Below, piece by piece: positions 23,158 through 40,158 of a stretch of DNA of 64,000 nucleotides. Within the stretch, counting starts at the first letter, position 1. Each line of letters starts with the position of its first letter. The DNA comes from an uncultured Psychroserpens sp. (GTDB lineage: Bacteria > Bacteroidota > Bacteroidia > Flavobacteriales > Flavobacteriaceae): the NCBI GenBank assembly GCA_947488655.1, contig CANKZZ010000007.1, positions 88,928 to 152,927 of the forward strand. The letters run 5' to 3'. The notes under the pieces are model-generated. The model worked only from the letters and a program-made list of their open reading frames with translations, was not told where the DNA came from and made no database searches. A program made the translations under genes and the position numbers.

Positions 23158-24450
23158 TTAGGATAATACAGTTTGTTTAACCACTGCAAAAGCCTCTTTT
23201 AAATCTGCTTTTAAATCATCTATATTTTCAATACCAACAGATAGTCGTATTAAATCTTTTGTAACTCCTGTAGTTTCCTGAGCTTCATCACTTAATTGTT
23301 GATGGGTTGTACTTGCAGGATGTATGATTAAAGATTTGGTGTCTCCAATATTTGCTAAAAGAGAAAATAGTTTAGTTGTATCTGCTACTTTTTTAGCAGA
23401 TTCGTAACCACCTTCAACACCAAATGTTACGATACCACTTTGTCCTTCTGGTAAATATTTTTTTGCTAAATCTCTATATTTACTGGATTCTAATCCTGGA
23501 TAATTTACCCAGTTAACTTCTGGTTGCTCTTGCAACCATTTTGCCAATTCTAGTGCATTTTCACTGTGTTTTTTAATACGCAGTTCTAAAGTTTCTAGAC
23601 CTTGTATAATTTGAAATGCATTAAAAGGACTCAATGCTCCACCATAATCTCTAAGACCTTCAATTCTAATTTTTGCAATAAATGCAGCATCTCCAATAAC
23701 TTCACTATATACTAACCCATGATATCCTGCTGAAGGTTCTGTGAATTCTGGAAATTTTCCGTTGGTCCAATCAAAAGTTCCTGCATCTACAATAATACCT
23801 CCTAACGACGTACCGTTACCATTAATGTATTTTGTTAACGAATGAATAACAATATTTGCTCCATACTCTATAGGGTTTAGCAAATAAGGTGTTGCTACTG
23901 TATTATCAACTATTAAAGGCACTCGCTTTGCTTTGGCATGTGTAGAAATTGCCTCAAGATCTAAAACGTCTAATTTTGGGTTACCTAACGATTCTACAAA
24001 AAATACTCTTGTATTTTCTTGAGTTGCTTTTTCAAAATTCTCTGGGTTTGAAGGGTCTACAAAAGTGGTAGTTATACCATGTCTTGGTAATGTAACGCTC
24101 AACAGGTTATATGTACCACCATATAAACTACTTGATGCTACAATATGATCTCCAGCCTTTAATAAAGTTAACAATGTTGTAGAAATGGCAGCGGTTCCAG
24201 ACGCTGTTGCTACAGCAGCAATTCCACCTTCTAATGCAGCAATACGTTGCTCTAAAATATCGTTAGTAGGATTATTTAAACGTGTGTAAATAAATCCTGG
24301 AACAGATAAATTAAATCGTCCTGCAGCATCATCTGAATCATCAAATACATAAGCTGTAGATTGGTAAATAGGTACAGCTCGTGTTCCTCCTGTTTTTGTT
24401 GTGTCGTGTCCTGCGTGCAACGCTTGTGTTGCAAATTTTTGTGTACTCAT
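23158..24450 (-). CDS. metY: O-acetylhomoserine sulfhydrylase
   Basis: 430-residue PLP enzyme of the Cys/Met family. The PLP lysine is in IHSLTKYINGNGTSLGG, and TRAVPIYQSTAYVF and YTRLNNPTND are MetY hallmarks. At 430 residues it has the insertion typical of MetY compared with MetZ/MetB. It converts O-acetylhomoserine and sulfide to homocysteine. It is the first gene of the operon and lies 122 nt after the SAM-I aptamer. Confidence 0.93.
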   Translation of the reverse strand: MSTQKFATQALHAGHDTTKTGGTRAVPIYQSTAYVFDDSDDAAGRFNLSVPGFIYTRLNNPTNDILEQRIAALEGGIAAVATASGTAAISTTLLTLLKAGDHIVASSSLYGGTYNLLSVTLPRHGITTTFVDPSNPENFEKATQENTRVFFVESLGNPKLDVLDLEAISTHAKAKRVPLIVDNTVATPYLLNPIEYGANIVIHSLTKYINGNGTSLGGIIVDAGTFDWTNGKFPEFTEPSAGYHGLVYSEVIGDAAFIAKIRIEGLRDYGGALSPFNAFQIIQGLETLELRIKKHSENALELAKWLQEQPEVNWVNYPGLESSKYRDLAKKYLPEGQSGIVTFGVEGGYESAKKVADTTKLFSLLANIGDTKSLIIHPASTTHQQLSDEAQETTGVTKDLIRLSVGIENIDDLKADLKEAFAVVKQTVLS

Positions 24451-24521: not shown

Positions 24522-24572
24522 AGAAAAATGTTATAAGAAAATATATAACTACAGATGAGTAATTATATTTTG

Positions 24573-24693
24573 GTTATCTATCCAAATTTGCAAAAAATGA
24601 CTTGCACATTTAAGTAGAATTTAGCACCTTCATAGTAAATCTAAGGGTTGCTAAGGCTTCAACGAGTCTAATCTCTCCGCCTTTCTTGATAAC
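24573..24693 (-). ncRNA. SAM-I (S-box) riboswitch upstream of metY
   Basis: The minus strand has GTTATCAAGAAAGGCGGAGAG, GATTAGACTCGTTGAAGCC, TTAGCAACCC and GAAGGTGCTAAATTCTAC, the SAM-I aptamer core. P1 is a perfect 6-bp pair, GTTATC (24693-24688) with GATAAC (24578-24573). It is very like the metH aptamer at 14034-14153. It should reduce metY-osmC-metX-metZ-rrf2 expression when SAM is high. Confidence 0.94.
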
Positions 24694-24953
24694 ATTTCAA
24701 TAAAGTTTTGAACTTTGTGAGTACAAATATTGCAAAATAAAATTTTCACAAACAAATAAAACAGAATATTTTTCTAAAAAATTATCATAAAATGATTTAA
24801 ACCGAAAATTTTTCGGCTATTATTAAATTTACACCTTTTTTATTCGGAAATGTATAAAATTAAAATCTTAGCATTTTGCAATATATTATAATCGTTCATT
24901 AAATATAAACATCTAATTTATCATACATTCTTTTCTAGTTCTAATATTATCTG

Positions 24954-24961: not shown

Positions 24962-24973
24962 CAGTCAATATAT

Positions 24974-25026
24974 ACGAGGAAAAATTTGTTCTGATTGCAA
25001 CCTCTTAAAAAAAATGCTAAAGCAGT
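24974..25026 (+). ncRNA. SAM-II riboswitch upstream of metK
   Basis: GAGG (24976-24979) pairs with CCTC (25001-25004). The loop carries ATTTG and CTGATTGCAA, and the tail is TTAAAAAAAATGCTAAAGC with the conserved GCTAAAG (25016-25022). This is the compact H-type pseudoknot pattern of SAM-II (SAM-alpha): a short P1, a conserved TTGCAA and a 3' GCTAAA. It is distinct from the two SAM-I elements. An ATG at 25014 lies inside the pseudoknot, so it is not the gene start. Confidence 0.85.
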
Positions 25027-25097
25027 TAGTTATAGACTTCTCTAGCGACCAAGCAATCTCAATATTTTTTTTCAGAATTATTAAATTAAAGAGATTT

Positions 25098-26351: not shown

Positions 26352-26375
26352 TTTATTCTATAAAATTTATAACTG

Positions 26376-26410
26376 AAACCTCTAAATTTAATTTGGAGGT
26401 TTTTTGTTTT
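26376..26410 (+). terminator. Rho-independent terminator of metK
   Basis: A 12-bp stem with one T-G wobble, AAACCTCTAAAT with ATTTGGAGGTTT, closes a 3-nt loop (26376-26402) and is followed by TTTTGTTTT. Confidence 0.8.
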
Positions 26411-26444
26411 AAGCAGAGTTCTTATATTGTTTAAAATCTATAAT

Positions 26445-27239
26445 ATGACATTCAAAACACTAGAATCTTCAGAATATAAAAATCTCTACTTCTATCGTAC
26501 CGAAGAATGGGATTGGTATACTAGTGATTTGATTAAGATTATTGATAGCAAAAACCCTAGAGTTATTACAATGGATCCTTGGCCTCAAAAAATTTACTTA
26601 GACGCTTTAGGTCAATTAACGGTTGAAGATTATATACACAACGTTGCTAAAGACTATCCCAAAGGGAATGTGCCAAAAGAACTAGATGACATGATTTTAC
26701 AACTGCTCGAAGATTTGGTATATGGTGAGAAAGTGGTATCATTTTCTGAAACTCCAGTGACTTTGGAAGCCTCTGTTTTAAATCCATCAACAGAAGAAGG
26801 AGAGATTGACATGAAAGGCATTTGGAAAGGTATGTATCAATACGCAATACCAGACGAGTTTAAAGATGATAGAATGGTTGATGTTGAGTTTACAATAACA
26901 ATTGATAGTGTTACAGGCAAAACATTCTCTGGTACTGTAAAAGATGACATATTAACTGGCGGAACTCCTGGAACTGGAATTATACAAGGAACCTTTGATA
27001 ACGATACAGTGACTTTCACTAAGAACATGCCAATTTCATCCATAATTGATGAAGATGGAAATCATCTTAACGACCCTAATAAAAAACACTCTACATTAAT
27101 TTACAAAGGTCAATTTTCTAGAAGCAAGCAAATTATAACTGGTACTTGGAAATTTAAAAAGAAGGCACTGTACTGGAAAGGAATTATACCGCAACTTGTC
27201 TCTAGAGGAACAGGAACTTTCGTGATGAGTAAAGTCTAA
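26445..27239 (+). CDS. Hypothetical protein with C-terminal beta-barrel-like half
   Basis: 264 residues that I do not recognise. I choose ATG 26445 (MTFKTLESSEYK) over an upstream TTG at 26427. No signal peptide, so cytoplasmic. Residues 1-90 are mixed alpha/beta. Residues about 130-264 have alternating beta strands (FTITIDSVTGKTFSGTVKDD, YKGQFSRSKQIITGTWKFK) with the G-x-W and FSG patterns of lipocalin-like bacterial barrels. It lies between metK and the MoxR cluster, 213 bp from the latter, without an obvious link to either. Confidence 0.78.
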   Translation: MTFKTLESSEYKNLYFYRTEEWDWYTSDLIKIIDSKNPRVITMDPWPQKIYLDALGQLTVEDYIHNVAKDYPKGNVPKELDDMILQLLEDLVYGEKVVSFSETPVTLEASVLNPSTEEGEIDMKGIWKGMYQYAIPDEFKDDRMVDVEFTITIDSVTGKTFSGTVKDDILTGGTPGTGIIQGTFDNDTVTFTKNMPISSIIDEDGNHLNDPNKKHSTLIYKGQFSRSKQIITGTWKFKKKALYWKGIIPQLVSRGTGTFVMSKV

Positions 27240-27452: not shown

Positions 27453-28109
27453 ATGTCAAAACTAAAACCTAATTTTTTCTTAGATTCTATTGCTCATTTA
27501 AGAGCTCATGGTCACTTAATTATTAGAGACGACTTACTTAAAACAACAAAAGCAGAAGACGAAGACATAGTTTTATATTTAGAACAAGATTTTGAAAAAG
27601 AGTGTTTGAGTTTTCCGTTTGAAGCACCCAAATTTAATGCTAGTGCTGCTTTATGGGCAAGTAAAATTGTCTATTATGCAACTCTTTTGTTATTACATCG
27701 CAAAGACACAAAAAAAGATTTGGAAACTATGTTTGCAGATTATACTGGAGTAATAGATTTGTCTGCTATACTTTCAGCAGATTTAACCTTACGTTTTTTA
27801 CCTCAGATCTATCTGAAGTTAGAAGCAATTGATCCTCAAGACCCTTTAGTAATTATTCTAAAACAAATTTTAAATACTTGGCAATTTTCAGCAATACACC
27901 AAACATTTAAATTTGAAGAGATTGATAAGCATTTCTATTTAGATAACTTAAACATCAAACAAATTTTCTTAGATAGAATTGTAGATAAAAAAGCATTAAA
28001 TTGGGCTAATGATTCACAAATAAATAACCTTTTAATTGACCATTTAGGTTATTTTAAAAATGACATTTGGAAAGCCCTACAACCCATTATAAATAATGAA
28101 CAAGACTAA
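27453..28109 (+). CDS. MoxR-vWA system accessory protein, probably bpX-type
   Basis: 218 residues, no signal peptide or membrane helix, mostly helical (SAALWASKIVYYATLLLLHRK, TLRFLPQIYLKLEAI). I recognise no catalytic motif. It is the first gene of a five-gene overlapping operon: its end overlaps the MoxR gene by 14 bp. The position matches the small accessory proteins of MoxR-vWA-beta-propeller ternary systems, where bpX-type domains adjoin the ATPase. The family call is from context, not from a recognised motif. Confidence 0.8.
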   Translation: MSKLKPNFFLDSIAHLRAHGHLIIRDDLLKTTKAEDEDIVLYLEQDFEKECLSFPFEAPKFNASAALWASKIVYYATLLLLHRKDTKKDLETMFADYTGVIDLSAILSADLTLRFLPQIYLKLEAIDPQDPLVIILKQILNTWQFSAIHQTFKFEEIDKHFYLDNLNIKQIFLDRIVDKKALNWANDSQINNLLIDHLGYFKNDIWKALQPIINNEQD

Positions 28110-29232
28110 CATAGAACAACTCAAAGCAGTTTTAGACCACATTAAAGCTACATTTGTTGGCAAAGATGATATCATAGATTTACTTGGCATTAGCTTAATA
28201 GCCAGAGAAAACACCTTTTTATTAGGACCTCCAGGTACCGCAAAAAGCGCCATCGTCAAATCATTATCTAAAGGTATTGAAAACGGAAAAAACTTTGAAT
28301 ATCTCCTTACAAGATTTACAGAACCCAATGAGCTATTTGGACCTTTTGATATTAAAAAACTACGTGAAGGCGAACTCGTAACTAACACAGATGGTATGAT
28401 GCCAGAGGCCTCTATGGTGTTTTTAGACGAAATTTTTAATGCCAATAGTGCTATTTTAAATAGTTTGCTCATGGCATTAAATGAGAAAGTGTTGCGACGC
28501 GGAAAACAAATTTTAAAACTACCTGCATTAATGTTTGTTGGCGCAAGTAATGTGTTGCCAGAAGACGAAGCATTAAATGCCCTTTTTGATCGTTTTTTAG
28601 TACGTGTAAAATGTGATTATGTAAATCCAGACTTACTCAATCAAGTCTTATTAGCTGGTTGGAAATTAGAAAAAAACGTCACAGGTGATATTCCTGTAAT
28701 TCAACCAGAAATGATAAAAGATCTGCAAGGTCAAACTAAAAAAGTGAATCTTACACCGATAATATCCACGTATGTAGATGTGATTCATAATTTAAGAAAT
28801 ACAGGAATCAATGTGTCTGACAGGCGTGCTGTTAAACTTCAAAATTTAATTGCTGCCAGTGCTATTTTCTGCGGAAGACAAGACACGATATTAAGTGACC
28901 TTTGGGTGTTAAAATACATTTGGGATACCGAAGAACAGATTGAAATATTAGAAGGTATCATAAATAACGTTATTGAAAAAGACATTACAGATGATTCGCA
29001 TCCGCAGGCATTATATAACAAAGCACCAAATCCAGAAGAAGTCATTAAAGAAGTGAACTTACTTAAAGAGCGTTGGCAAAATGACACTATATCTTTTGAA
29101 GAGCAAAACGTTATTAAAGATAAACTTCGTTTTATACAAAGTAGAGCAGACTGGATAAACAACGACGAACAAAAGCAATTTATAAAAACCGAAATAGATG
29201 CATTATGGCAAAAGATTTTGCAGACATTATAG
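28096..29232 (+). CDS. MoxR-family AAA+ ATPase (RavA-like)
   Basis: 378 residues. Walker A is GPPGTAKS with K50, Walker B is MVFLDEIFNAN with D111 and E112, and LTRFTEPNELFGPFDI, GASNVLPEDEALNALFDRFLVR (sensor 1 and arginine-finger regions) closely follow RavA of Enterobacteria. Such ATPases form hexamers and pair with vWA proteins to remodel or mature targets. The downstream 852-residue protein is the likely vWA partner. The gene overlaps its neighbours by 14 bp and 28 bp. It is the motor of the system. Confidence 0.94.
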   Translation: MNKTNIEQLKAVLDHIKATFVGKDDIIDLLGISLIARENTFLLGPPGTAKSAIVKSLSKGIENGKNFEYLLTRFTEPNELFGPFDIKKLREGELVTNTDGMMPEASMVFLDEIFNANSAILNSLLMALNEKVLRRGKQILKLPALMFVGASNVLPEDEALNALFDRFLVRVKCDYVNPDLLNQVLLAGWKLEKNVTGDIPVIQPEMIKDLQGQTKKVNLTPIISTYVDVIHNLRNTGINVSDRRAVKLQNLIAASAIFCGRQDTILSDLWVLKYIWDTEEQIEILEGIINNVIEKDITDDSHPQALYNKAPNPEEVIKEVNLLKERWQNDTISFEEQNVIKDKLRFIQSRADWINNDEQKQFIKTEIDALWQKILQTL

Positions 29233-29954
29233 AATTTATAGTTCGTGTTGATAAATCAGACCTTGATACTTTAGCTCAAATTCGACATTTTGAGAATTTA
29301 AAAATTGCTCAAAATGAAAACGACTTATGGGTTAAAGGCTTCAGTATGGAGCAAATTAATGGTGTTGCGGTTAAAACGCTTCCGAAGAAAAACATATTTT
29401 ACGTCAAAGATTCTAGATTGTTCCCAAAAGACAGTTTACTACCCATTGGCAAATTACCATCGTCATTACTTTGGACACCTATACAAATGGCTTTGTTGAT
29501 TGAAGAACCTCAACTCAATCATAATTTTTTTGGTATTAATGAGCAAATTGATATTCAGTTAGCGCCATTTCATGAAGAAAAAAAACTTTTTGCAACCTTA
29601 ATTAATTTAGACAACAATACTAAATCAATTATAGAAAGCTCACCAAATTTTAGACTAGAGCATTTAAGATATGTACTAATTAATACATCTAAAGTATTAA
29701 TTATTGGATCTCCAACATTAGGTATAAAAGGGCAATCGTTTTGGCTCTATAATGATTTTTTATTACCAAATGGATTTCATTTTAAATTTCCAATTCTTAC
29801 TAAGAGTATTAAAAATGCATTAAACTCAACTGGAGAAAACTATGTACTTTGGCAAAAAAACAACAGTTATGCTTTAATTAAAAAGAGTGATTTTAAACCC
29901 TTGTCTATAAGTTCTTTTAGACGCACTTTGAGCCTTTTTAATATTAATGCATAA
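29205..29954 (+). CDS. MoxR-vWA system accessory protein (beta-rich)
   Basis: 249 residues with no signal peptide and no clear known domain. It is rich in short beta strands (VAVKTLPKKNIFYVKD, LPIGKLPSSLLWTPIQ) and ends in SSFRRTLSLFNINA. It starts 28 bp inside the ATPase gene and ends 8 bp inside the vWA-like gene, an unusual degree of overlap that shows tight coupling. A bpX-type role is inferred from the operon alone. Confidence 0.8.
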   Translation: MAKDFADIIEFIVRVDKSDLDTLAQIRHFENLKIAQNENDLWVKGFSMEQINGVAVKTLPKKNIFYVKDSRLFPKDSLLPIGKLPSSLLWTPIQMALLIEEPQLNHNFFGINEQIDIQLAPFHEEKKLFATLINLDNNTKSIIESSPNFRLEHLRYVLINTSKVLIIGSPTLGIKGQSFWLYNDFLLPNGFHFKFPILTKSIKNALNSTGENYVLWQKNNSYALIKKSDFKPLSISSFRRTLSLFNINA

Positions 29955-32505
29955 TTACCTAAACACATATAAAGACTACTTTTGGCACTGGGATTGTGAC
30001 AACGCAGATATTAATAATCGCTATCGATATATTGCAACAATTAGAGATGGCCAATCTATAGCTTACTACCCAAAAATATTTGAAGTTTTAGAAGATTTAC
30101 AGCATCAAGGTCTACCTCCTTTTGGTGCTATATTATTAGTGCTTATTGCCACTAACCAAAACATAGATGACGTCACCTCAAATCATTTAGAACGCATTTT
30201 ACTAGGCATTGATGGCTCCAAAACCACTCTAAATGCCATTGAGGTTTTAGACCTCATAAAAAGTTTACCTTATAGACTTAAAACAGGATCTAACTTAACC
30301 CTATTATTTCAAACTTTATTTAAAGATTGTCATAATAGAATGGGTATACCAAAATCTAAAGAGTTTATAAATAATCTTCAAAACGATCATTACAATTTTT
30401 ATTTAACTACTAACACACCCGAAGGCACAGACCAAACAAACATAGCAACTTTTAATAAAGATGTAAGAGCCATTGCACTACTTATTAGACGTTTTAAAAG
30501 CGTTGATGATATTAGTAATGCAATGCAAAATATACCGAAAAATGATTTAGAAAGTACCGTTATACTAGAAGACACGATCTCTAATGAAAATGAGATAGAC
30601 AAATCATTTATTAAGCAATTAACAGAGCATAAGAGTACCTACCAAATTGGGAGTTTAATAAAGCGTATTTGGTCTGGACTTGATATACCAATGCATAATA
30701 ATTTACCAAGTACTCAGCCTTTAGGTGGTGTGTCTGATATTATTAATAAGGGTGACTTTAGTAGATTATTGATTTCTGAATTTGCATATGAAGATGACAC
30801 ATTTATGTCTAGAATTGCAAATAATGAAGCACTTTATATTGAGAGAGAAACACCTCCCGAAAGCAATAACAAACACCGTGTATTTTTAATTGATGCCTCT
30901 CTAAAAAATTGGGGAATCCCTAAAGTATTATCATTTGCAACGAGTTTGGCTATAGCACAACACCCTAAATCTAATTACAAATACAGTGCTTTTGTAGTTG
31001 GACAAGATTATGAAGAAGCACCAATAGAAACTTTATACGATGTTATAGAAAGCCAACAAATTCTTTCTGGTGGCTTACAACCCTCTTTAGGTTTATCAAA
31101 ATATTTTAAAGATAATAATGATGATTCTAATCGCGAATTATTTTTCTTGACCGAAACTAAAAACTTAGACCATCCAGATCTTCAAAATGTGTTATATCAA
31201 TATCACGAACAATTTAATTACATTATTACAACACATACTAGTGGTACACTAAATTTTTATAAGCATCAAAATAGAAGTCGCAAACAGTTTCAACAAATCG
31301 TACTGCCTTATCAAGAAATATGGGACAACAATAGACCTTTAGAAGTGCACTCTAAACCCATAACGAGCAGTGATATAGATATTAAGCATGTATTGTTAGA
31401 ACCTATAGATGTTACTTCAAAGATAATTCCGTTTGAAGAAACTTATTATGTGGTACAAAATGCTAATGTGTATACCTTAACTTCGGCAGGATATGAAAAA
31501 GGGCTGCAAATGATCATGGAAGATATTCCCTATAGCCAAGACTATAGATATACTATTGTAAGAAATCAATCAAAAGCACTCATTCTCGTTATTTTAATTT
31601 TAGCTGAAAAACGCCTAACCAAAATAAATCTTAAAACTAAAGAAAGCGAGTCTAAAATTATTAATAATGAGAACATAGATAACTACCAAACCATCCTATT
31701 TAGCGAAGGAAATAATATTATACTTAGCAGTTCTAAACAGTATTATAATATTACTAATGACTATAAGATGTTTTTATTAACAGGAAACATGGCATATTCA
31801 CAGGCTATGAATACTTATTTTGATAAAATTTATGACTTTAGACGTCAATTAAAATTCTACAGAGTTAAGTACAACATCCTAAAAAACATAGTAGCTCTAA
31901 AAACAAAAAAAGGTGCTTATGATACCAATTATTTGTTTCTAAATGATTTTTTAATAGAAGATGAGTATATAAAATTAATAAATCAAAGTAAACACTATTA
32001 TACTATTAAGGCTAGTAGAGCTCTTATCATAGAAAAAAAACAAACACTGGTTTTAAAACGACGAGGAAACCAAGCTCTAAGCATTGTTAAATATCTAAAT
32101 ACGCATTTTAAATTTGATCTTAAAGAAGCCAAAAACCTTATAGAGTCTACTCCTAGCGTTATAGCAAATGGACTGTTATTTGAAAATGCCGAACGATTTA
32201 AAAAAGATATTGAAGAGTTAGGTGCCACCTGTTATTTAAAAACAGATTATTTTGAAAGTAAAGACGGTAGCACAATACATATAAAAAATGGGCAACTCAT
32301 TTTTAATAGTAGTAAAACCTTTATTCCAACTTTTTACATTACATCTGTTTTAAATCATCGTATTGCAATGGCTACCCATAGTGAGTTTGCTGGCAACACC
32401 TATTATTTACCAGTAAATCACAAGCTTACAACCATAGATATTAAGGAGTTTTATAAAAAATATATTAATCCGTTTCTAACTCAAATTATAGAACATGAAG
32501 ATTAA
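29947..32505 (+). CDS. Large vWA-like/beta-propeller protein of the MoxR system, with L7/L12-like segment
   Basis: 852 residues. Residues 1 to about 260 are helical (TYKDYFWHWDCDN start). Residues about 310-470 look like a vWA fold (HRVFLIDASLKNWG, ELFFLTETKN). The MIDAS motif is degenerate: D316-A-S-L-K in place of D-x-S-x-S. Residues about 480-700 have repeated beta-rich segments compatible with a beta-propeller. Residues about 706-764 (FDLKEAKNLIESTPSVIANG, KKDIEELGATCYLK) resemble the C-terminal domain of ribosomal protein L7/L12. The C-terminal 90 residues are again beta-rich. No signal peptide is present. The calls beyond vWA are by eye. Confidence 0.8.
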   Translation: MHNYLNTYKDYFWHWDCDNADINNRYRYIATIRDGQSIAYYPKIFEVLEDLQHQGLPPFGAILLVLIATNQNIDDVTSNHLERILLGIDGSKTTLNAIEVLDLIKSLPYRLKTGSNLTLLFQTLFKDCHNRMGIPKSKEFINNLQNDHYNFYLTTNTPEGTDQTNIATFNKDVRAIALLIRRFKSVDDISNAMQNIPKNDLESTVILEDTISNENEIDKSFIKQLTEHKSTYQIGSLIKRIWSGLDIPMHNNLPSTQPLGGVSDIINKGDFSRLLISEFAYEDDTFMSRIANNEALYIERETPPESNNKHRVFLIDASLKNWGIPKVLSFATSLAIAQHPKSNYKYSAFVVGQDYEEAPIETLYDVIESQQILSGGLQPSLGLSKYFKDNNDDSNRELFFLTETKNLDHPDLQNVLYQYHEQFNYIITTHTSGTLNFYKHQNRSRKQFQQIVLPYQEIWDNNRPLEVHSKPITSSDIDIKHVLLEPIDVTSKIIPFEETYYVVQNANVYTLTSAGYEKGLQMIMEDIPYSQDYRYTIVRNQSKALILVILILAEKRLTKINLKTKESESKIINNENIDNYQTILFSEGNNIILSSSKQYYNITNDYKMFLLTGNMAYSQAMNTYFDKIYDFRRQLKFYRVKYNILKNIVALKTKKGAYDTNYLFLNDFLIEDEYIKLINQSKHYYTIKASRALIIEKKQTLVLKRRGNQALSIVKYLNTHFKFDLKEAKNLIESTPSVIANGLLFENAERFKKDIEELGATCYLKTDYFESKDGSTIHIKNGQLIFNSSKTFIPTFYITSVLNHRIAMATHSEFAGNTYYLPVNHKLTTIDIKEFYKKYINPFLTQIIEHED

Positions 32506-34381
32506 TATTACACCAACAAAACATAATACATATCCCAAAAAAGGAATTCTCATTAGAAGCGCTCATCCTTATGAGTGGATCCAGGAATTGCAAAATTTAA
32601 ACATAGATTTAGACACGGTAAACGCCTACGCAATACCAAGTAAAATTGCCAACCAAATTTATGGATGCTTTGTGATTTTAAACCAGTTAAAATCTAACAC
32701 TCATATTGCAAATGTTGCTATTTTTCAATCGGTAAATGATGTAATTTACATACCAGAATTTTCTAAAATTAACCCTAAATTAGCATTAGAAGAAAGTCAA
32801 AAGTTATTGAAATTTCCTCACATTTATCATCCAGATTTTGGTTGGTTTTCTTTAGAAACAAAAATTAATTGGACAAGCCTTATAAGACTAAGAGCAGCAT
32901 TACCATTACAAATTACAGTTCCTGAAGACTCTGTTTTTATACCTTCGGAAATTTTAAGTTTTCAATTAATTTCTAAATCTGATGAAGAGATCACCAAAGA
33001 TTTAGACCTTAAACTAGAAAAACCAAAAAAAGAAAAATTAAGTGCTGTAGATAAAATAAAATTAAATGTTTTAAAAACACTTTTTTCCGCAACACAAGGA
33101 AAAAACGGAAACTTTAATGTAGAACGCAACAACCTATTAAAATGGTTAGATAATATAGGAGGCTCTCAAGGCCAAAAACAAAGCAATAGAAGCTCAAAAT
33201 GGGAAAAAAATCTAGAGAGGCTACTCTACAAAAATCAAAAAGAGACAGATAAATTACTTAGACTACTAAAACTTAATCCTAACTCTGCTTTAAAATTTGC
33301 TATACCAATAGATTTGGCTGGCACTTCAAGAGATGCTGGAAATGGCCAACTCGGTATCTTTTCTAAAAACAGTGATGGTGATAGCAGGTTCTCTAATTTT
33401 ATTTTTAAAATACTATCCTATATTATTTTACTTGTAATTGCTTATTTAATTTACTTACTTATTTCTGGCATTGCAAATGCTAATTTATATCCCTTTTTAT
33501 CGACATTACTCAAAGGTATTGGCTTTTTTGTTGGTGTCGTTATTTTGGTTGTAATTATAGAACGTCTTTTTGGAGGATCCAGCAATGGTGGCTCTGGCAC
33601 TGTAGATGATGAGCGTTTAAACGCTTTAAAAAAACAGTACGAGAAATTAGCAAAAGAGGCTATAGATGTTAAAGATTATAAAAAAGCAGCATCTATTTAT
33701 ATTAAGCTTTTAAAAGATTATTATGCTGCTGCAGATGCTCTAGAGGAAGGAAAGTTGTACCAAGAAGCTGCACTTGTCCATTTAAAATATAATAAAAATA
33801 AAAACAAAGCTGCAGAGGTTTATGAGAAAGGAAAAATTTATGATAAGTCTATAGCGTTGTACAAAGAGTTAGAAGAGCATGAAAAAGTAGGCGATATCTA
33901 TAAGTCTATGCGTAATACTGTAGAAGCTAATACATATTACCAAATGGTTATTGATGACTACTTAGAAAATGACCAATTTGTAAAAGCCTCGTTAATTTAT
34001 AAATACAAAATTGAAGATGCTCCAAAAGCACAAACTATCTTATTGCAAGGCTGGAGAGCGCACAAAGACGCTTATAACTGTTTAAATAATTATTTTAGCA
34101 ATTTCCCAAACACCGAAATATTAAAAAAAGGCATAGAATTTATTTACAAAAAAGAAACTGGACCAGACAACCTTACTGTGTTCTTAAAAGCATTAAAGGT
34201 AGAGCATCAAAAGCACGAGGATATACACGATTTTACACAAAATATCGCTTATGAGATTGTAGCTAATAATTTGAGTGATAATCCTGGCATTACTTACGAG
34301 CTCAAAGCATTTAGTGCAGATAATCATTTAATACAAAATGATGCAACTCGTTTTGTAAAGCGCACTAAGTATAAGAGGTAA
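32495..34381 (+). CDS. Membrane-anchored TPR-type protein of the MoxR-vWA system
   Basis: 628 residues. Residues 1 to about 160 form an N-terminal domain (GILIRSAHPYEWIQELQNL) of bpX6 type by context. Then comes a charged linker. Two membrane helices lie at about 302-325 and 335-357 (SYIILLVIAYLIYLLISG, GIGFFVGVVILVVIIERLF). From about 375 a helical solenoid follows with TPR-like repeats (KDYKKAASIYIKLLKDY, KIYDKSIALYKELEEHEK, AALVHLKYNK). It overlaps the vWA-like gene by 11 bp and is the membrane anchor of the system, so the whole machine probably works at the inner membrane. Confidence 0.86.
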   Translation: MKINITPTKHNTYPKKGILIRSAHPYEWIQELQNLNIDLDTVNAYAIPSKIANQIYGCFVILNQLKSNTHIANVAIFQSVNDVIYIPEFSKINPKLALEESQKLLKFPHIYHPDFGWFSLETKINWTSLIRLRAALPLQITVPEDSVFIPSEILSFQLISKSDEEITKDLDLKLEKPKKEKLSAVDKIKLNVLKTLFSATQGKNGNFNVERNNLLKWLDNIGGSQGQKQSNRSSKWEKNLERLLYKNQKETDKLLRLLKLNPNSALKFAIPIDLAGTSRDAGNGQLGIFSKNSDGDSRFSNFIFKILSYIILLVIAYLIYLLISGIANANLYPFLSTLLKGIGFFVGVVILVVIIERLFGGSSNGGSGTVDDERLNALKKQYEKLAKEAIDVKDYKKAASIYIKLLKDYYAAADALEEGKLYQEAALVHLKYNKNKNKAAEVYEKGKIYDKSIALYKELEEHEKVGDIYKSMRNTVEANTYYQMVIDDYLENDQFVKASLIYKYKIEDAPKAQTILLQGWRAHKDAYNCLNNYFSNFPNTEILKKGIEFIYKKETGPDNLTVFLKALKVEHQKHEDIHDFTQNIAYEIVANNLSDNPGITYELKAFSADNHLIQNDATRFVKRTKYKR

Positions 34382-34385
34382 TAAA

Positions 34386-35249
34386 TCACCCTCTAGGTCG
34401 TCCTCCCATGCGTTGTGATCTAAACTCTTTCATTTTCTCTGCAATTGTTTCTTGGTACGTTGTCTTTGTAACTTCTTTTCCTTTAGTTGGCGCTTCTATT
34501 TCAAGTGTTTCATCTGGATTTATAACCAATTTAGAACACAACATTGTTGTATCTCCTGCACTAACTTCTAAGATTAAACCAGGAAGTCCCCAATATTCTG
34601 ATGGTCCATGACTTACTGGGATTTGTGGTGTGTACCACGCTTCTACTTTTGTCATATCAATAGTTGGTGTTACTGTTGTTTCTCCCTCACCTGCTGGAAT
34701 ATTATTTGATAATTTACCCCAAGAAAATGAGTACCAAGTTAACTCGTTTGTAGGTATAGAGGCTGTGGCTTTAAAGCACATGTAATTACCAATTTGTTTA
34801 CTTTCGCTCCCTAATTGCCAATCTATTGGTTGCAGGCTATCTTTAACCAGAAAGCGTTTACCATAAAATTCTTGATCTTGTATTTGTGTATTTATTTTTA
34901 CGTTTTTATACTGGTCTCCTGCTGCAAAGTTTTTTCCCCAAGAGTCTGTTGCTCCAGACATAGCGTCTAACATATCATTTTCTGTAAAGTAGGATTCGGT
35001 TTTATTAAATGTTAGTGTATATGTTTTTTCTAGTCGGTTTTTTAATCGTGCTTTAACTGCTTTTTTTTGCTCTTCGCTCATTCTTGCTCCCCAACTCCCT
35101 AAATCTAATGACGATTTTGAGATATATGTAGCCACACCTTGAAACTCCTTGATGTTTTGGTGTTTTGTTATGTTTGTTTGTTGAGTTGGATGATGTAGTA
35201 TTAAGGTTATAAATGTTAACAAATATGCTGTACTGAAAATTACTTTCAT
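34386..35249 (-). CDS. GLPGLI-family secreted protein
   Basis: 287 residues. The N-terminal hydrophobic segment (VIFSTAYLLTFITLILHH) is a signal peptide. The family motif reads WGLPGLILEVSAGDTTMLCSK, preceded by AWYTPQIPVSHGPSEY. The C-terminus has TYQETIAEKMKEFRSQRMGG. The GLPGLI family is Bacteroidota specific and its function is unknown. It is one of three paralogues here, with its own -7 box and a terminator separating it from the barrel gene. Confidence 0.92.
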   Translation of the reverse strand: MKVIFSTAYLLTFITLILHHPTQQTNITKHQNIKEFQGVATYISKSSLDLGSWGARMSEEQKKAVKARLKNRLEKTYTLTFNKTESYFTENDMLDAMSGATDSWGKNFAAGDQYKNVKINTQIQDQEFYGKRFLVKDSLQPIDWQLGSESKQIGNYMCFKATASIPTNELTWYSFSWGKLSNNIPAGEGETTVTPTIDMTKVEAWYTPQIPVSHGPSEYWGLPGLILEVSAGDTTMLCSKLVINPDETLEIEAPTKGKEVTKTTYQETIAEKMKEFRSQRMGGRPRG

Positions 35250-35270
35250 AATATTTTATATTTTGTCTAA

Positions 35271-35278
35271 CAAATTTA
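35271..35278 (-). promoter_or_regulatory. -7 box before the GLPGLI gene at 34386
   Basis: On the minus strand TAAATTTG matches TAnnTTTG exactly, 21 nt before the start codon. A clear -33 element is not visible. Confidence 0.45.
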
Positions 35279-35345
35279 AATAAATATTAAACAAAATGCT
35301 GTTTTTATTATAACATTAACAAACTAAACAATTGATTATCTGCAA

Positions 35346-35378
35346 AGAAAAAGCCTTCTCTCAAATAAAGAAGGCTTT
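35346..35378 (-). terminator. Terminator after the barrel gene element
   Basis: AAAGCCTTC (35350-35358) pairs perfectly with GAAGGCTTT (35370-35378). On the minus strand it is followed by TTTCTTT. It separates the beta-barrel gene from the GLPGLI gene at 34386, making them separate units. Confidence 0.75.
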
Positions 35379-35385
35379 ATGTTTT

Positions 35386-35483
35386 GCGTTAAGGATAGTA
35401 GCGACATCCTTTTTGTTTTTTACAAAAAGATATAGCGAATAGCCTGACCCTTTGTAGTCTTTTAACGAAAAAGGGGAACGCCC
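35386..35483. other. Structured intergenic element after the barrel gene (possible RNA or dispersed repeat)
   Basis: 98 bp framed by GCGTT (35386-35390) and AACGC (35477-35481). Inside are GGAT (35393-35396) with ATCC (35406-35409), and CTTTTTGT (35409-35416) with ACAAAAAG (35422-35429). Text such as TAGCGACATCC and TATAGCGAATAGCCTGACC recurs, as I recall, in intergenic regions of other flavobacterial genomes. TATAGCGAATAG (35431-35442) occurs again at the barrel gene's end (35494-35505). Either a dispersed repeat or a structured RNA; family not settled. Confidence 0.5.
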
Positions 35484-35492
35484 AAAATTTGT

Positions 35493-38240
35493 TTATAGCG
35501 AATAGATAACTCTAAAGGTTACAAATCTTGGTAGTATAAAAGTTTCTGAACTAAATACCGATATATTATTAGCACCATTATTTACATTAGAGTCTATATT
35601 TAATAGGTTTGATGCTTTTACCTCGAACTCCCATTTTGCGTCTCTGTCTTTTCTATAAGCTAGACTTGCATCCCAAGTTTTAAAAGATTGTGCTGGCCTT
35701 ATACCATCATCTTGATTTTGGTATGTAAAATCTGTTCTAAATGTAAATGCTTTTAATATATAGGCATCAAACTCTATAGATGGTGCATTTACTATAAATG
35801 TTGTAGAACTGGCTCCTTGGTTGTTTTCTGTTACTGTATAACGGTATTTTAAGCTTACGTTTGGCGCTTGTTTAAAATTGGTACGAATCTCTGGAGTGTA
35901 ACTTTGTGAAAAACTTTCGTTAACAGAGCGAATGCCCTGAATAAATTGATTGTTTTTATTATAACTAAAATTGGCTCTTAAACTGGCTCTTATTTTTTTA
36001 AAGGTACGTTGTACACGACCAAATGCTGTAAAACTCTCATCTGCAAAATTAGAATTAAAATATGTGCTGGTTCTAATGACATTATCAAATTGAGTTTGAC
36101 TTCTAATTTGATCTATATTTTTATTGTAATTAAGTACTGCAAAAACGTTTGTATAGTTAAATAAATTGAAACTAAAGTAGCTTAAATTTAAGTTATGCGA
36201 TAAAGAGTTTTGAAGCTCTGAATTACCATAACCAATGCTATTAAAATTATTTAGAACTAAACCTTCGGCTAAACTTGTAACATCTGTAAATGAATTAGAC
36301 ATGTTGTATCTAAAGGTTAAATTTTCGCTCTTTTTGAATTGAATACGGGTTTCAAAATCTGGTAATACTCTAAAGAAATTATCTTTATATGTTTCTCCAA
36401 ATTGCGTATTCTTATTACCGTAAGAGTGCACAGAAAATCCAGGTGTTATTGTAAATTTTCCGGTTTTTAATCTATAGTGTAAACCTAAGTAAACATCACT
36501 AAAATTATAATTTGTATCGTTCTCGTTGGTTAACAAATTACCATCATTATCTTCTAAAGTAGCTACCGGATCAAAAAATGAACCATCGTCTAAAAACTGA
36601 AATATATTAGAATTAAACTCTTGTCTACTTAGTATGGTACCAAACGTAACATTAATATTACTTTTGTTATTTAAAATATGATAGTAATCTACTTTTGCAT
36701 CTAACTGATTAGATTTTATACGCCTGTTTTGATTAATATTATAACCTAATTGATCTTGGTTAAAACCTAAACCATCGGCTGTATTATCAAAAGCATCTTG
36801 AGTGAGTGGATCATCATTATTATCTGGATCATTAGTTAATAAAGCATTATAGAATGGATCTTCATCTTTAAAGAGATGTTGCGCCTCAACAGCAAAAATG
36901 TTTTTATCGTCTAAAGTGTAGTAATAATTAAAATTTTGATTTATACTGAAAGGCTTCGCCTTATCTACTTGGTTAGTATTACCTACAACAGAAGAAAATA
37001 AATCTTGAGTTTCTGTATCGTTAGAAATACGACCTAAAACATCATAATCTAGTTGATTGTTAACATTTGGTTTGTATGATAAGCTCAATTTTGCCAAACC
37101 TTGATTAGATGCTTCTCGTCCTATTTGAACAGTTTCTTCATCTGGTATACCTAAATCTGCATCTGTATAACGTACAAAACTTTCTTCTCTTGTTCTTAAC
37201 CTACTACTATTGTATATAAAAAATCCACTAATATCGAGATTTTTTTTAGGTGCATAACTAAAATTTGCTGCTCCTAATTTGGTCTCTACACTTTGTGCAT
37301 TACTTACATTGGTTAAACCACTTAAGCCATTATTGCCTAAATTAATATTTGTACCACTACTTCTTGAAGGCGCTCTAAAACCTCCTCCAAAATTTCTAAT
37401 ATCTCTATTGGTTAATGCTACTTCTCCTATATTATTCATGTCTCCAATAAGATTGACACTATATTTTGGGCTATAATAAAAGAGTTTGGGTTGTACGAGA
37501 TAAATCCCATCTGTATCTGCAATACCAGTTCCTGCAGTAATATCTCCAAACCAGAAATTCTCTTTTCCTTCTTTTAATTTAATATTTATGGCTACGTTAT
37601 CTTGGTTGTTGGTTACACCACTTAATTGACCAACCTCTGAGTAATTTCTCAATACTTGAATTTTGTCTACTGCGTTAGAGGGAATGTTTTTTGTAGCTAA
37701 TTTAGAATCGCCATCAAAAAAGTCTTTTCCGTTTACCATCAATTTATTAACCACCTTGCCTTCTACTTCAATTTGACCGTCGGCATTAATCTCTACTCCT
37801 GGTAATTTTTTGAGAACATCTTCTAGCTTTCTCTCACTACCATCTTTAAAAGAGTCTGCATTATAAACTAATGTATCTCCTTTGATAGTTACAGGCATTT
37901 CGTAAGTGAGCTCAACAGCTGCAAGTGCATTATCTTCTTGAAGCGTGTAATCATTAGTTATATCTGTTTCTTTGGTAGATACGGTTTGAGAGACTGTTTT
38001 CATACCAATGTAACTCACCTGTACAGTATACACTGTATTTTTATCTAAATCTAATTTATAAAATCCCTTATCGTTAGTTATCGCGTAAGATGCCATAGCT
38101 TTTGTTTCTTTATTGATAGCAATAATGTTTGCCAATTCTAATGGCGCACCAAGACTATCTTTTACAACACCTTTTACGGTAATTTGGGCACTAGAAATCC
38201 CTGCTATTAAAAGCATTAAAGCAATAATGATATTTTTCAT
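35493..38240 (-). CDS. Outer-membrane beta-barrel protein with carboxypeptidase-regulatory-like and plug domains
   Basis: 915 residues. A signal peptide (MKNIIIALMLLIAGISSAQ) is followed by a carboxypeptidase-regulatory-like domain (about 20-105; GVVKDSLGAPLELANI), a plug-like region (about 115-205; DVLKKLPGVEINADG, VDKIQVLRNYSEVGQLSG), and a long beta-barrel (about 390-915) ending in RVIYSL. This is the TonB-receptor-like OMP_b-brl_3 pattern. It follows a GLPGLI gene on the minus strand with a hairpin between them. Function is probably export or uptake of a peptide or ligand shared with the GLPGLI proteins; this is inference. Confidence 0.9.
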   Translation of the reverse strand: MKNIIIALMLLIAGISSAQITVKGVVKDSLGAPLELANIIAINKETKAMASYAITNDKGFYKLDLDKNTVYTVQVSYIGMKTVSQTVSTKETDITNDYTLQEDNALAAVELTYEMPVTIKGDTLVYNADSFKDGSERKLEDVLKKLPGVEINADGQIEVEGKVVNKLMVNGKDFFDGDSKLATKNIPSNAVDKIQVLRNYSEVGQLSGVTNNQDNVAINIKLKEGKENFWFGDITAGTGIADTDGIYLVQPKLFYYSPKYSVNLIGDMNNIGEVALTNRDIRNFGGGFRAPSRSSGTNINLGNNGLSGLTNVSNAQSVETKLGAANFSYAPKKNLDISGFFIYNSSRLRTREESFVRYTDADLGIPDEETVQIGREASNQGLAKLSLSYKPNVNNQLDYDVLGRISNDTETQDLFSSVVGNTNQVDKAKPFSINQNFNYYYTLDDKNIFAVEAQHLFKDEDPFYNALLTNDPDNNDDPLTQDAFDNTADGLGFNQDQLGYNINQNRRIKSNQLDAKVDYYHILNNKSNINVTFGTILSRQEFNSNIFQFLDDGSFFDPVATLEDNDGNLLTNENDTNYNFSDVYLGLHYRLKTGKFTITPGFSVHSYGNKNTQFGETYKDNFFRVLPDFETRIQFKKSENLTFRYNMSNSFTDVTSLAEGLVLNNFNSIGYGNSELQNSLSHNLNLSYFSFNLFNYTNVFAVLNYNKNIDQIRSQTQFDNVIRTSTYFNSNFADESFTAFGRVQRTFKKIRASLRANFSYNKNNQFIQGIRSVNESFSQSYTPEIRTNFKQAPNVSLKYRYTVTENNQGASSTTFIVNAPSIEFDAYILKAFTFRTDFTYQNQDDGIRPAQSFKTWDASLAYRKDRDAKWEFEVKASNLLNIDSNVNNGANNISVFSSETFILPRFVTFRVIYSL

Positions 38241-38254
38241 TTGATTAGTTTTTT

Positions 38255-38274
38255 CTTCCTTATTTCTAAGGAAG
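38255..38274 (-). other. Hairpin between GLPGLI and barrel genes
   Basis: CTTCCTTA (38255-38262) and TAAGGAAG (38267-38274) form a perfect 8-bp stem with a TTTC loop. On the minus strand it precedes the barrel ATG with no U-tract, so it may be an mRNA processing or stability element rather than a terminator. Confidence 0.45.
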
Positions 38275-38300
38275 TATGGACAGATTATTTGATTAGTATA

Positions 38301-39194
38301 TTAGTTTCTTCGACCTCCTCGACCTCCTCGACCACCATACATTTCTCTCATTTCTTCAATTTTATCTTTCATGATTTGATTGTATTCGTCTCTAGTCACA
38401 ACATCACCTTTATCTGGTTTATCAATGTCTTCTTTGTCTTTAGGATTCATTACTATTTTGGTGCATAACATGACTGTTTTATCTGCAGTAACTTCTAAAA
38501 TTAATCCTGGTAAACCATGGTATTCTCCTGGACCTGTACTTACTGGAATTTGTGGTGTATACCAAGCTGTCACAACAACAAATTTTGGCACTTCTATATC
38601 CTCAAACACTTGGTTATTTGCTTTTTTTGTAGAGTCTACTTTTTTATCTGCTTCTTCCTTATCATCATTACCTCTACCTCGTCTACGCATGCTTGTAAAA
38701 TCCATCTCATCAACAGGTTTTGTAGTTGTAGCTTTAAAGCATGTGTATTGCCCAATTTGTTTTGTTTCGCTTCCTAATTTCCACTCTAATTTTGGCAAAG
38801 AATCTTTTACTAAAAATTGCTTACCAAAAAATTCTTGCTCTTGTAAAATTAAAGACTCTTTTATGTTTTTATATTGAGGTCCTCCTGTAAAGCTACTCAT
38901 CATACCTCCAAAACGACCACCACCTCCTGCACCAGGAGCTTCTAGTTTCTCTTCTTCTTTATACGTAGATTCGGTTCTATTAAAATTGAGAACGTATGTT
39001 TTTTCTAACATACTTTTCATACGGTCTGCAATTTGCTTTTTTCTTTCAGCACTCATTTGATCTCCTCCAAAATTACTCATATCTAGAGTAGTCTTAGTTT
39101 GATAAATTGCCTGACCTTGAAAGTCTTGAGCAGAAATTGAGACACTAAATAAAAGTAAAAGTGCGGTACTACATGCGATAACTAGTCGTTTCAT
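38301..39194 (-). CDS. GLPGLI-family secreted protein
   Basis: 297 residues, with signal peptide (MKRLVIACSTALLLLFSVSISAQ). The family motif is HGLPGLILEVTADKTVMLCTK near residue 230, preceded by AWYTPQIPVSTGPGEY. A charged insertion of Arg, Lys and Asp (DDKEEADKKVDSTKK) lies near residue 180, and the C-terminus is Gly/Arg rich (MYGGRGGRGGRRN). These are unlike the sister copies and may make it basic. It is upstream of the barrel gene by 60 bp and has its own -7 box. Confidence 0.92.
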   Translation of the reverse strand: MKRLVIACSTALLLLFSVSISAQDFQGQAIYQTKTTLDMSNFGGDQMSAERKKQIADRMKSMLEKTYVLNFNRTESTYKEEEKLEAPGAGGGGRFGGMMSSFTGGPQYKNIKESLILQEQEFFGKQFLVKDSLPKLEWKLGSETKQIGQYTCFKATTTKPVDEMDFTSMRRRGRGNDDKEEADKKVDSTKKANNQVFEDIEVPKFVVVTAWYTPQIPVSTGPGEYHGLPGLILEVTADKTVMLCTKIVMNPKDKEDIDKPDKGDVVTRDEYNQIMKDKIEEMREMYGGRGGRGGRRN

Positions 39195-39219
39195 AATTAT
39201 AAAGTCTTAAAATAAAAGG

Positions 39220-39227
39220 CAAAGTTA
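39220..39227 (-). promoter_or_regulatory. -7 box before the GLPGLI gene at 38301
   Basis: On the minus strand TAACTTTG matches TAnnTTTG exactly, 25 nt before the start codon. The transcript would cover the GLPGLI gene and the barrel gene. Confidence 0.5.
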
Positions 39228-39306
39228 TACCCTTACACGTCAATTAGACTTTAAAACTTACAATTAGTTAAATCTTTAAAAGTTAAAGTTTTCTTAATGA
39301 TTTAAA

Positions 39307-40158
39307 CTAACCACCTATTCTAATTTCTATACTTTCTCCATCGCCTCTACCACTCGGTCTATAACGCTCTTCCATTTCTTTTAATTTCTTTTCTAAAATA
39401 GCGTCATACTCTTTTTGAGTTACTTCTTTACCTTTTGTAGGTTCTATAATATCATTAGATTTTTTAGGATTAATAGTTATTTTACTGCAAATAATAGTTT
39501 GACTCCCGTCATTAGTTTCTAATATTAAACCTGGCAACCCATGATAACCTGCAGGACCTGCACTTACAGGGATTTGAGGTGTGTACCATGCTGTAATAGT
39601 GATGGTCTTCATTTTAGGGATAGTTGTCTCATCTTCATTTAAATCTTTATATCCATTAAAGCTAATTGCGCTTTGCATTTCTTCTATCTCTCTGGTCATT
39701 GTAGCCTTAAAGCAAGTGTATTCTCCTATATTTTTTGTGTCTGGCTGCAAAACCCATTCATGTTCTTTTAAATCATCTTTTATTAAAAACATTTTGCTAA
39801 AGGTTTCTGTTTGGTTGATTTTACGCTTTTCTTTTATGTTTTTGTATAAAATATCTGATCCACCAGAGCCAATCATAACCATCTCCATACCTTGTGGATT
39901 TGGAGACCCAAGAGATTCTTCTTCTTTATAAACCGATTCATCTTTATTAAAAGTAAGTATGTGTGTTTTTTCAAATTGCTTTTTTAGCATGCTCATTACC
40001 TGTTGCTGCATACCTGTATCCATTTGAGTACTATCTAGTTTTATGTCTATTTGACGTTTAGACTTATAAGTTGCTTCTCCCTTAAACTCTTGAGCGTGCA
40101 CATTTCCGAAGAAGAAAAACAAGTAAACTATAAGTGCTAATTTTACTATTGTATTCAT
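39307..40158 (-). CDS. GLPGLI-family secreted protein
   Basis: 283 residues. The signal peptide contains FFFFGNVHAQ. The motif HGLPGLILETNDGSQTIICSK is near residue 205, preceded by AWYTPQIPVSAGPAGY. It shares the fold of the other two GLPGLI proteins but lacks the charged insertion. It follows the 123-aa protein gene by 27 bp and is in the same transcript, starting from the promoter next to the response regulator array. Confidence 0.92.
   Translation of the reverse strand: MNTIVKLALIVYLFFFFGNVHAQEFKGEATYKSKRQIDIKLDSTQMDTGMQQQVMSMLKKQFEKTHILTFNKDESVYKEEESLGSPNPQGMEMVMIGSGGSDILYKNIKEKRKINQTETFSKMFLIKDDLKEHEWVLQPDTKNIGEYTCFKATMTREIEEMQSAISFNGYKDLNEDETTIPKMKTITITAWYTPQIPVSAGPAGYHGLPGLILETNDGSQTIICSKITINPKKSNDIIEPTKGKEVTQKEYDAILEKKLKEMEERYRPSGRGDGESIEIRIGG

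Follow-up and report, generated by a model that had tools for sequence, protein, structure and literature searches.

The closest described relatives of the locus analysed here are the MoxR-vWA-bpX ternary systems of Kaur et al. 2020 (eLife e52696; PMC7159879). These systems are characterised by a bpMoxR-clade ATPase, a vWA component ending in a beta-propeller, a third component with a globular N-terminal domain, membrane span, TPRs and beta-propeller, and linked alpha-helical and alpha+beta genes. According to the part of that paper devoted to them, the vWA component carries N-terminal helical and C-terminal beta domains in about 62% of the members, its metal site is degenerate in a subset, an L12 insertion is present "in several bacteroidetes", and the third component includes a membrane span, a conventional effector being absent; a role in biological conflict was proposed by the authors from genomic context. 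Section 22 and the term-matched passages of PMC7159879 make no mention of a tRNA or RNA-repair context. Among the matches listed, the searchable open-licence literature yielded no report of a target of a bpX system or of a link to tRNA arrays, and it assigns these systems no client, effector or pathway; the initial annotation of the locus likewise named no assigned target for the lineage. Here we describe a five-gene operon of this type in a 64,000-nucleotide stretch of DNA (hereafter, the window) from an uncultured Psychroserpens sp. (assembly GCA_947488655.1, contig CANKZZ010000007.1, positions 88,928 to 152,927). The bpX family itself is known; what is new is the tRNA and RNA-repair context of the operon in its relatives, which, together with an L7/L12 C-terminal domain in the window protein, provides a first testable hint that the complex may protect protein synthesis.

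The operon and its place among the bpX ternary systems

The operon consists of five open reading frames (ORFs), each with an ATG start, which form one directional set with junction overlaps of 14, 28, 8 and 11 bp in gene order (Table 1); the ORF list bears out the initial annotation in the positions and overlaps of all five genes. The set is not a product of chance, because every protein matches its own curated family far above the cut-off. Its composition is that of the published system: an ATPase of the bpMoxR clade with the GXXXTAKS P-loop, a vWA component with bpX0 and bpX1, a third component with bpX3, a predicted transmembrane (TM) segment and TPR-like repeats, and linked bpX4 and bpX2 proteins. 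Judging from these sequence features, the operon is almost certainly a genuine member of the MoxR-vWA-bpX ternary system.

A relative is encoded in 226 stretches, the best 80 of which, by similarity to the query, were kept; together with the window they make up the 81 loci considered below. All five genes occur in 76 of the 81 loci, with an identical order in all 76. The remaining five are L121, L131, L134, L141 and L144. Four of these are short or break off close to the operon; for L131 and L144, the ORF picking preferred an antisense ORF to one of the genes. The initial annotation had proposed the membership and had named two grounds for abandoning it, namely the lack of a vWA or bpX relation and the unlinking of the genes in relatives; instead, Pfam places all five proteins in bpX ternary families, and the genes are linked.

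Table 1 Features of the operon in the window (aa, amino acids)
Feature	Position	Strand	Evidence
bpX4 protein, 218 aa, operon gene 1	27453..28109	+	PF19920 2.1e-56
bpMoxR AAA+ ATPase, 378 aa	28096..29232	+	PF20030 1.7e-98
P-loop GPPGTAKS of bpMoxR	28225-28248	+	sequence motif
bpX2 protein, 249 aa, mixed alpha/beta	29205..29954	+	PF19918 4e-76
Large vWA component, 852 aa	29947..32505	+	Pfam, AlphaFold2 model
bpX0 helical domain, aa 35-189	30049..30513	+	PF19915 1.3e-26; helices in AlphaFold2 model
vWA-like domain, aa ~310-441, metal site IDASLKNWG	30874..31269	+	DSSP of AlphaFold2 model, motif counts
Beta-rich region, aa ~490-680, predicted beta-propeller	31414..31986	+	Foldseek
L7/L12 C-terminal-domain insert, aa 701-765	32047..32241	+	PF00542 (Ribosomal_L12) 3.1e-11
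bpX1 domain, aa 767-847	32245..32487	+	PF19917 9.7e-17
Third component, 628 aa	32495..34381	+	Pfam, hydrophobicity scan, alignment
bpX3 of third component	32501-32995	+	PF19919 3.3e-37
Two TM-like stretches, aa 298-331 and 333-363	33386-33583	+	hydrophobicity scan
TPR-like repeats of third component	from about 33626	+	alignment

The large protein has the domain order bpX0, vWA-like, beta-rich, L7/L12 C-terminal domain and bpX1. In its AlphaFold2 model (predicted local distance difference test, pLDDT, 79.5; predicted template-modelling score, pTM, 0.46), helices are followed by a Rossmann-like alternation (aa 310-441) and then by strands. The L12 part of the model superimposes on 1ctf, the C-terminal domain of E. 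coli L7/L12, at 0.9 Å with 34% identity. In the ribosomal stalk, it is this domain that recruits translational GTPases. For the beta-rich region, the best Foldseek match of the protein is a propeller lyase (E 1.9e-4), followed by many further propellers, with an integrin alpha chain at rank 11 (E 1.8e-3). The vWA metal site is partly degenerate: the first Asp (D316) is invariant in 36 aligned sequences, and a second is not apparent in the alignment. The block just before the site (aa ~225-305) is rich in invariant residues in the same sequences; aa 251-306 of the model have a pLDDT below 50. A Pfam scan gave no VWA match, no vWA-only structure is among the best 50 Foldseek matches listed, and no solved relative of the protein emerged from a sequence search. 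The basis of the "vWA-like" label of the initial annotation is the predicted strand/helix alternation and the published definition of the system, not Pfam.

Two hydrophobic stretches in the third component are in line with the membrane anchoring claimed for it earlier, and the claimed TPR character, weak in the window protein (TPR_6 0.041), is clearer in Pfam matches of relatives. Pfam finds no beta-propeller in the window protein, and a profile search gave nothing in this direction beyond a WDR19 match at 0.0012 in the repeat region. A simple hydrophobicity scan reveals a TM-like stretch in every third component of the three groups (window lineage, Flavobacterium type and Chryseobacterium type; 69 of 69) and in only one of the 10 from other loci, which include L121, a member of the Flavobacteriales. 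The predicted membrane span is lineage-bound, and the proposed location at the inner membrane would apply to the window lineage. The third component is a single gene in the window, unlike L073, L074, L080, L088, L091 and most Chryseobacterium-type loci, where two separate genes encode its bpX3-TM and TM-TPR parts.

The GPPGTAKS P-loop is present in 78 of 79 MoxR proteins, including that of the window, the Walker B motif of which is MVFLDEI. At 1e-10 the only PDB relatives of this ATPase are RavA chains, which match at 1e-42. The description "RavA-like" holds for the relationship (NCBIfam RavA, 1.4e-52) but not for family membership, the score being 179.4 bits compared to the 681 required for the equivalog; the ViaA family is not among the Pfam and NCBIfam matches of the operon proteins. 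The AlphaFold2 model of bpX2 (pLDDT 83.2, pTM 0.52) resembles no recognised fold, its best match in a PDB comparison having an E of 0.12. Profile comparison detected no hidden homology of the vWA protein with bpX2 or bpX4, nor any between bpX2 and bpX3, and such kinship was rejected. One or two extra genes, of the DUF4919 family or of a Pfam-less family of membrane-bound appearance, lie between bpX4 and MoxR in L091, L099, L101, L110, L113, L124, L127, L130, L138, L139, L146 and L147.

RNA-repair genes and tRNA arrays beside the operons of relatives

At least one of eleven island gene families is found in 55 of the 81 loci, and at least three in 47. Pfam, run on a single representative per family, identified RNA ligases (PF09414 with PF18043, or RLIG1-like, PF17720), an exonuclease (PF00929/PF16473) and cREC (PF20274), and further Band_7, RNaseH_like, Endonuclease V and phosphoesterase families; the phosphoesterase, MBL, R2K and 261-aa families are the less specific members. 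The 261-aa family (F5_261) was considered as an ATP-grasp protein, but this was dropped for lack of a Pfam match, and it counts as a neighbour only. The neighbour counts include loci with short flanks and are lower bounds.

Flavobacterium-type operons (23 loci) are mostly preceded, on the same strand, by genes for ligase (RLIG1-like or Rnl2; 15 loci), the 261-aa family, Band_7 (16 loci), phosphoesterase and exonuclease (21 loci); in L091, as an exception, ligase, Band_7 and exonuclease lie downstream of the operon. The abstract of the 2016 work of Burroughs and Aravind on RNA repair systems reportedly mentions a Band-7-associated tRNA-like RNA. In the 41 Chryseobacterium-type loci, the genes following the operon encode RNaseH-like proteins in 31, cREC in 28, a ligase in 19 and an exonuclease in 13. 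The repair genes are thus mostly upstream in Flavobacterium and downstream in Chryseobacterium, and their membership differs.

ARAGORN predicts 4 to 17 tRNA genes on the downstream side of the operon in 34 of the 38 Chryseobacterium-type loci whose flank reaches 2.5 kb or more, the exceptions being L120, L135, L137 and L142; the arrays (L096-L148) are situated in the downstream flank, mostly at 15.8-18.7 kb, directly beside the operon, and the repair-type genes usually come after them. The fetched flanks, for most loci about 7-8 kb on each side, contain at least two tRNAs in 19 of the 23 Flavobacterium-type loci, where ligase, Band_7 or exonuclease genes mostly occupy the opposite side of the operon. 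The 34 arrays have a median of 13 tRNAs, the commonest anticodons being those for Pro (31), His (30), Glu (30) and Cys (28), followed by Tyr (28), Leu(tag) (28), Phe (25) and Lys (24); Ala, Gly and Val are missing from their tally. All 33 array Leu tRNAs measure only 74-76 nt and lack the long variable arm expected of a bacterial tRNA-Leu, and the Tyr tRNAs measure 84-87 nt. The array tRNA-His has a mean column identity of 96% (25 aligned of 30 copies) and is therefore not decaying.

In the complete genome G373, ARAGORN counts 15 tRNAs in the array and 59 in the remaining stretches fetched. All 15 array anticodons also occur outside the array, at 58-73% identity, and for 12 of the 15 the closest outside tRNA carries a different anticodon. 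The base after the anticodon differs from the canonical one of G373 in most array copies for Asp, Glu, Gln and Pro (4 of 13 anticodons) and shows no such difference for the other nine. An Rfam search put the number of tRNAs at 75 in G373 and 35 in the window genome, both of which may be low since 150 candidates were scored per genome. These arrays of divergent tRNAs, which are kept also where the bpX operon is missing, merit separate study.

Co-occurrence was assessed genome-wide in both genera. PF09414 was set aside as a Flavobacterium marker: it matches in 73 of 299 genomes, mostly in frames of ~850 codons that we read as DNA ligases, for which reason the RLIG1-like protein was used. The latter is found in 21 of the 299 genomes, bpX2 in 19 and both in 11 (Fisher 5.8e-10, ignoring phylogeny); in all 11, the two lie within 12.4 kb on one contig. 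In Chryseobacterium, cREC occurs in 142 of 161 genomes with bpX2 vs 5 of 12 without it (Fisher 3.8e-4, again ignoring phylogeny), and arrays of 6 to 17 tRNAs are present in all of six genomes that have the operon without cREC.

Candidate client and alternative explanations

Our preferred reading, to which as a whole we give a probability of about 0.4, is that the operon encodes an ATP-driven bpX remodelling complex, membrane-held in this lineage, whose client is a troubled translation apparatus. The products would form a single complex of the published ternary type, in which a MoxR ring, assumed by homology, would pair with the large vWA-propeller protein, as in known MoxR-vWA couples, to capture and release the client. 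The bpX3-TM-TPR protein would anchor the complex to the inner membrane in this lineage, with bpX2 and bpX4 as probable constant partners. Damaged tRNA or stalled translation factors may be the likeliest client. We make this guess because the window protein carries the L7/L12 C-terminal domain and because many operons of two sister genera lie in islands of spare tRNAs and RNA-repair genes; a translation or tRNA client is our best single guess, and on this basis we hypothesize a role in guarding tRNAs or translation. The window operon itself contributes the L12 domain alone to the translation reading, and the rest comes from relatives.

Several observations weigh against this reading. ARAGORN finds no tRNA in the whole window, and the Rfam search no tRNA match near the operon in the window genome, which also shows no dedicated RNA ligase and has a single PF09414 match, below the cut-off, in a 537-codon frame. 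No tRNA is present in the fetched flanks of the four other window-lineage loci (L069-L072), or in those of 12 other loci, just four of which have 5 kb on both sides. The L12 domain occurs in 34 of 80 scored vWA proteins (those of the window lineage, all 23 of the Flavobacterium type and six other loci) and in none of the 41 of the Chryseobacterium type, though the largest tRNA arrays are there. In addition, the 80 loci were picked by query similarity, so that the proportions are biased towards near relatives and do not represent a random sample.

Island and operon are also separable both ways, since islands without an operon (in both genera) and operons without an island occur. Of the 10 Flavobacterium genomes with the RLIG1-like ligase and without bpX2, eight were fetched: six (L149-L154) keep island genes beside the same F15/F16 genes in the absence of the operon, one (L155, in G928) contains two short bpX3 fragments beside the RNA-repair set, apparently the scar of an operon loss, and in one (L156) the ligase alone was seen. 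These eight loci have 0 to 5 tRNAs. Five Chryseobacterium genomes with cREC and without bpX2 have 15, 17, 19, 4 and 0 tRNAs in the fetched stretches, of which 14, 16, 16, 4 and 0, by reading, belong to the array; in those with 15, 17 and 19 tRNAs, gene F2 directly adjoins tRNA-His at the position expected for the operon. Conversely, two Flavobacterium operons outside the 80 stand apart from islands, L158 with neither tRNAs nor repair families, and L063 with one tRNA, no repair family and no L12 domain.

The rival that fares best, though we still consider it unlikely, is an anti-phage or inter-bacterial conflict system, in which the fast-diverging third component would be a membrane effector and the tRNA and repair island a neighbouring defence-type island. 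Patchy presence in two genera speaks for such a role. A full-length vWA protein is found in 3 of 23 Psychroserpens genomes, each time directly downstream of metK, and the operon is accessory in this genus; bpX2 occurs in 19 of 299 Flavobacterium genomes, in 10 of 395 drawn from the phylum and in 1 of 149 of a family-wide draw, which rejects Flavobacteriaceae-wide synteny, a check suggested earlier. Presence and absence at the same site, with the remnant fragments in L155, also fit a conflict role, but in Chryseobacterium the operon is close to core (bpX2 in 161 of 173 genomes, with a single match each except in one incomplete genome). Divergence rates cut both ways: in 23 Chryseobacterium-type loci, bpX4, bpX2, vWA and bpX3 diverge by 0.25-0.35, compared to 0.073 for MoxR and 0.084 (F2), 0.088 and 0.125 for neighbour genes. 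However, the distances of vWA and bpX3 track those of neighbours F2 and F7 (Spearman 0.69-0.77) as F2 and F7 track each other (0.72), in line with vertical descent; the tracking is weaker for bpX2 (0.53-0.56), bpX4 (0.34-0.38) and a neighbouring RNaseH-like gene (0.28-0.38). Moreover, the five operon proteins match 0 families of PADLOC 2.0.0, phage records give no match and plasmid records a single partial one, in Hymenobacter (52% covered, 26% identity), and no relative was confirmed in viral contigs.

A RavA-ViaA-like, membrane-linked chaperone for assembly or quality control, with no special tie to RNA, seems rather improbable to us. In this case the co-location with tRNAs would reflect a genomic hot spot, tRNA genes being common insertion sites. 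The RavA kinship of the ATPase, the TM stretches of this lineage, the position of the operon beside metK without RNA genes in relatives of the window, and the separability of island and operon all favour such a chaperone. Nevertheless, most Flavobacterium-type operons adjoin island protein genes rather than a tRNA, the two genera share the island tie, with its genes mostly on opposite sides of the operon, and nine of the 10 third components of other lineages lack a TM stretch, which makes membrane work unlikely to be ancestral. As to a mobile element, this candidate was discarded, there being no match to phage records, the one partial plasmid match and no relative confirmed in viral contigs, with mobile-element genes not systematically searched.

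An extension of the preferred reading, a translation-directed remodelling complex, would make the bpX operon the protein arm of a chromosomal "tRNA insurance" defence, an idea we regard as doubtful. The array of supernumerary, diverged tRNAs, some with altered anticodon loops, would supply spares or decoys next to the RNA-repair enzymes, and the MoxR-vWA machine would sense or clear translation complexes harmed by tRNA-cutting toxins; members without an array, such as the window operon, might reach the same client directly through the L12 domain. If true, a bacterium, rather than a phage, would keep a conserved reserve of divergent tRNAs.

Surroundings of the operon and comparison with described systems

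An unrooted tree of 33 loci unites the window lineage with the Chryseobacterium and Flavobacterium types in a single group (support 1.0), within which the grouping of the window lineage with the Flavobacterium type is unsupported (0.499). The operon of Arcticiflavibacter (L071) occupies the same metK site as in the window, where metK ends at 26351 and is followed by a terminator-like stem (26375-26403) and an ORF of 270 aa (26427-27239) with no Pfam match. This ORF was left out of the system because it occurs in operon-less members of the genus (L032, L036) and is unseen beside the operon of L029. The metK-side interval was considered as a defence hot spot, without support in the other 20 Psychroserpens genomes, which are operon-less: 14 have an ORF of ~600 aa, lipoprotein-like in our reading, five no 70-aa ORF and one another ORF.

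Downstream, a convergent Porph_ging gene starts at 34386, 5 bp past the final stop of the operon. It belongs to a minus-strand set (34386-40158) in which three mutually similar genes, one assigned to Porph_ging by Pfam, surround a receptor-like gene; the genus members examined carry relatives of this set downstream of metK. A Flavo-1 small RNA (RF01705, 59 bits) lies on the plus strand at 35381-35453, between two minus-strand genes, and a second copy in L091. On the other side, a SAM-I riboswitch (24571-24695, minus strand) precedes the minus-strand gene 23158-24450, and 275 bp from it a SAM-II riboswitch (24970-25030, plus strand) is located at the start of the metK ORF; the region near metK thus has two different SAM sensors.

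Compared to the jumbo-phage tRNA sets with RNA ligases (PMC7824862), and in the parts of that paper concerned with them, the islands of the relatives likewise combine extra tRNAs, RNA ligases and cREC-type receivers, and they share extra tRNAs with phages that, as described in PMC10264068, evade anticodon nucleases. Unlike these phage systems, the islands are chromosomal, widely kept within a genus and accompanied by a bpX operon, and the window itself has no such island. Like RavA-ViaA, the operon encodes a MoxR AAA+ relative, and the E. coli system also comprises a vWA partner and an inner-membrane link; the window MoxR, however, has 378 aa compared to about 498, and three extra bpX partners accompany it. 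The third component of the window differs from that of the bpX systems of Kaur et al. in having no sequence-visible beta-propeller. In common with those systems, as far as the relevant section describes them, the operon combines seven system domains (bpX0-bpX4, bpMoxR and the L12 insert) with the GXXXTAKS P-loop, a degenerate vWA site and a third component containing TM and TPR-like segments.

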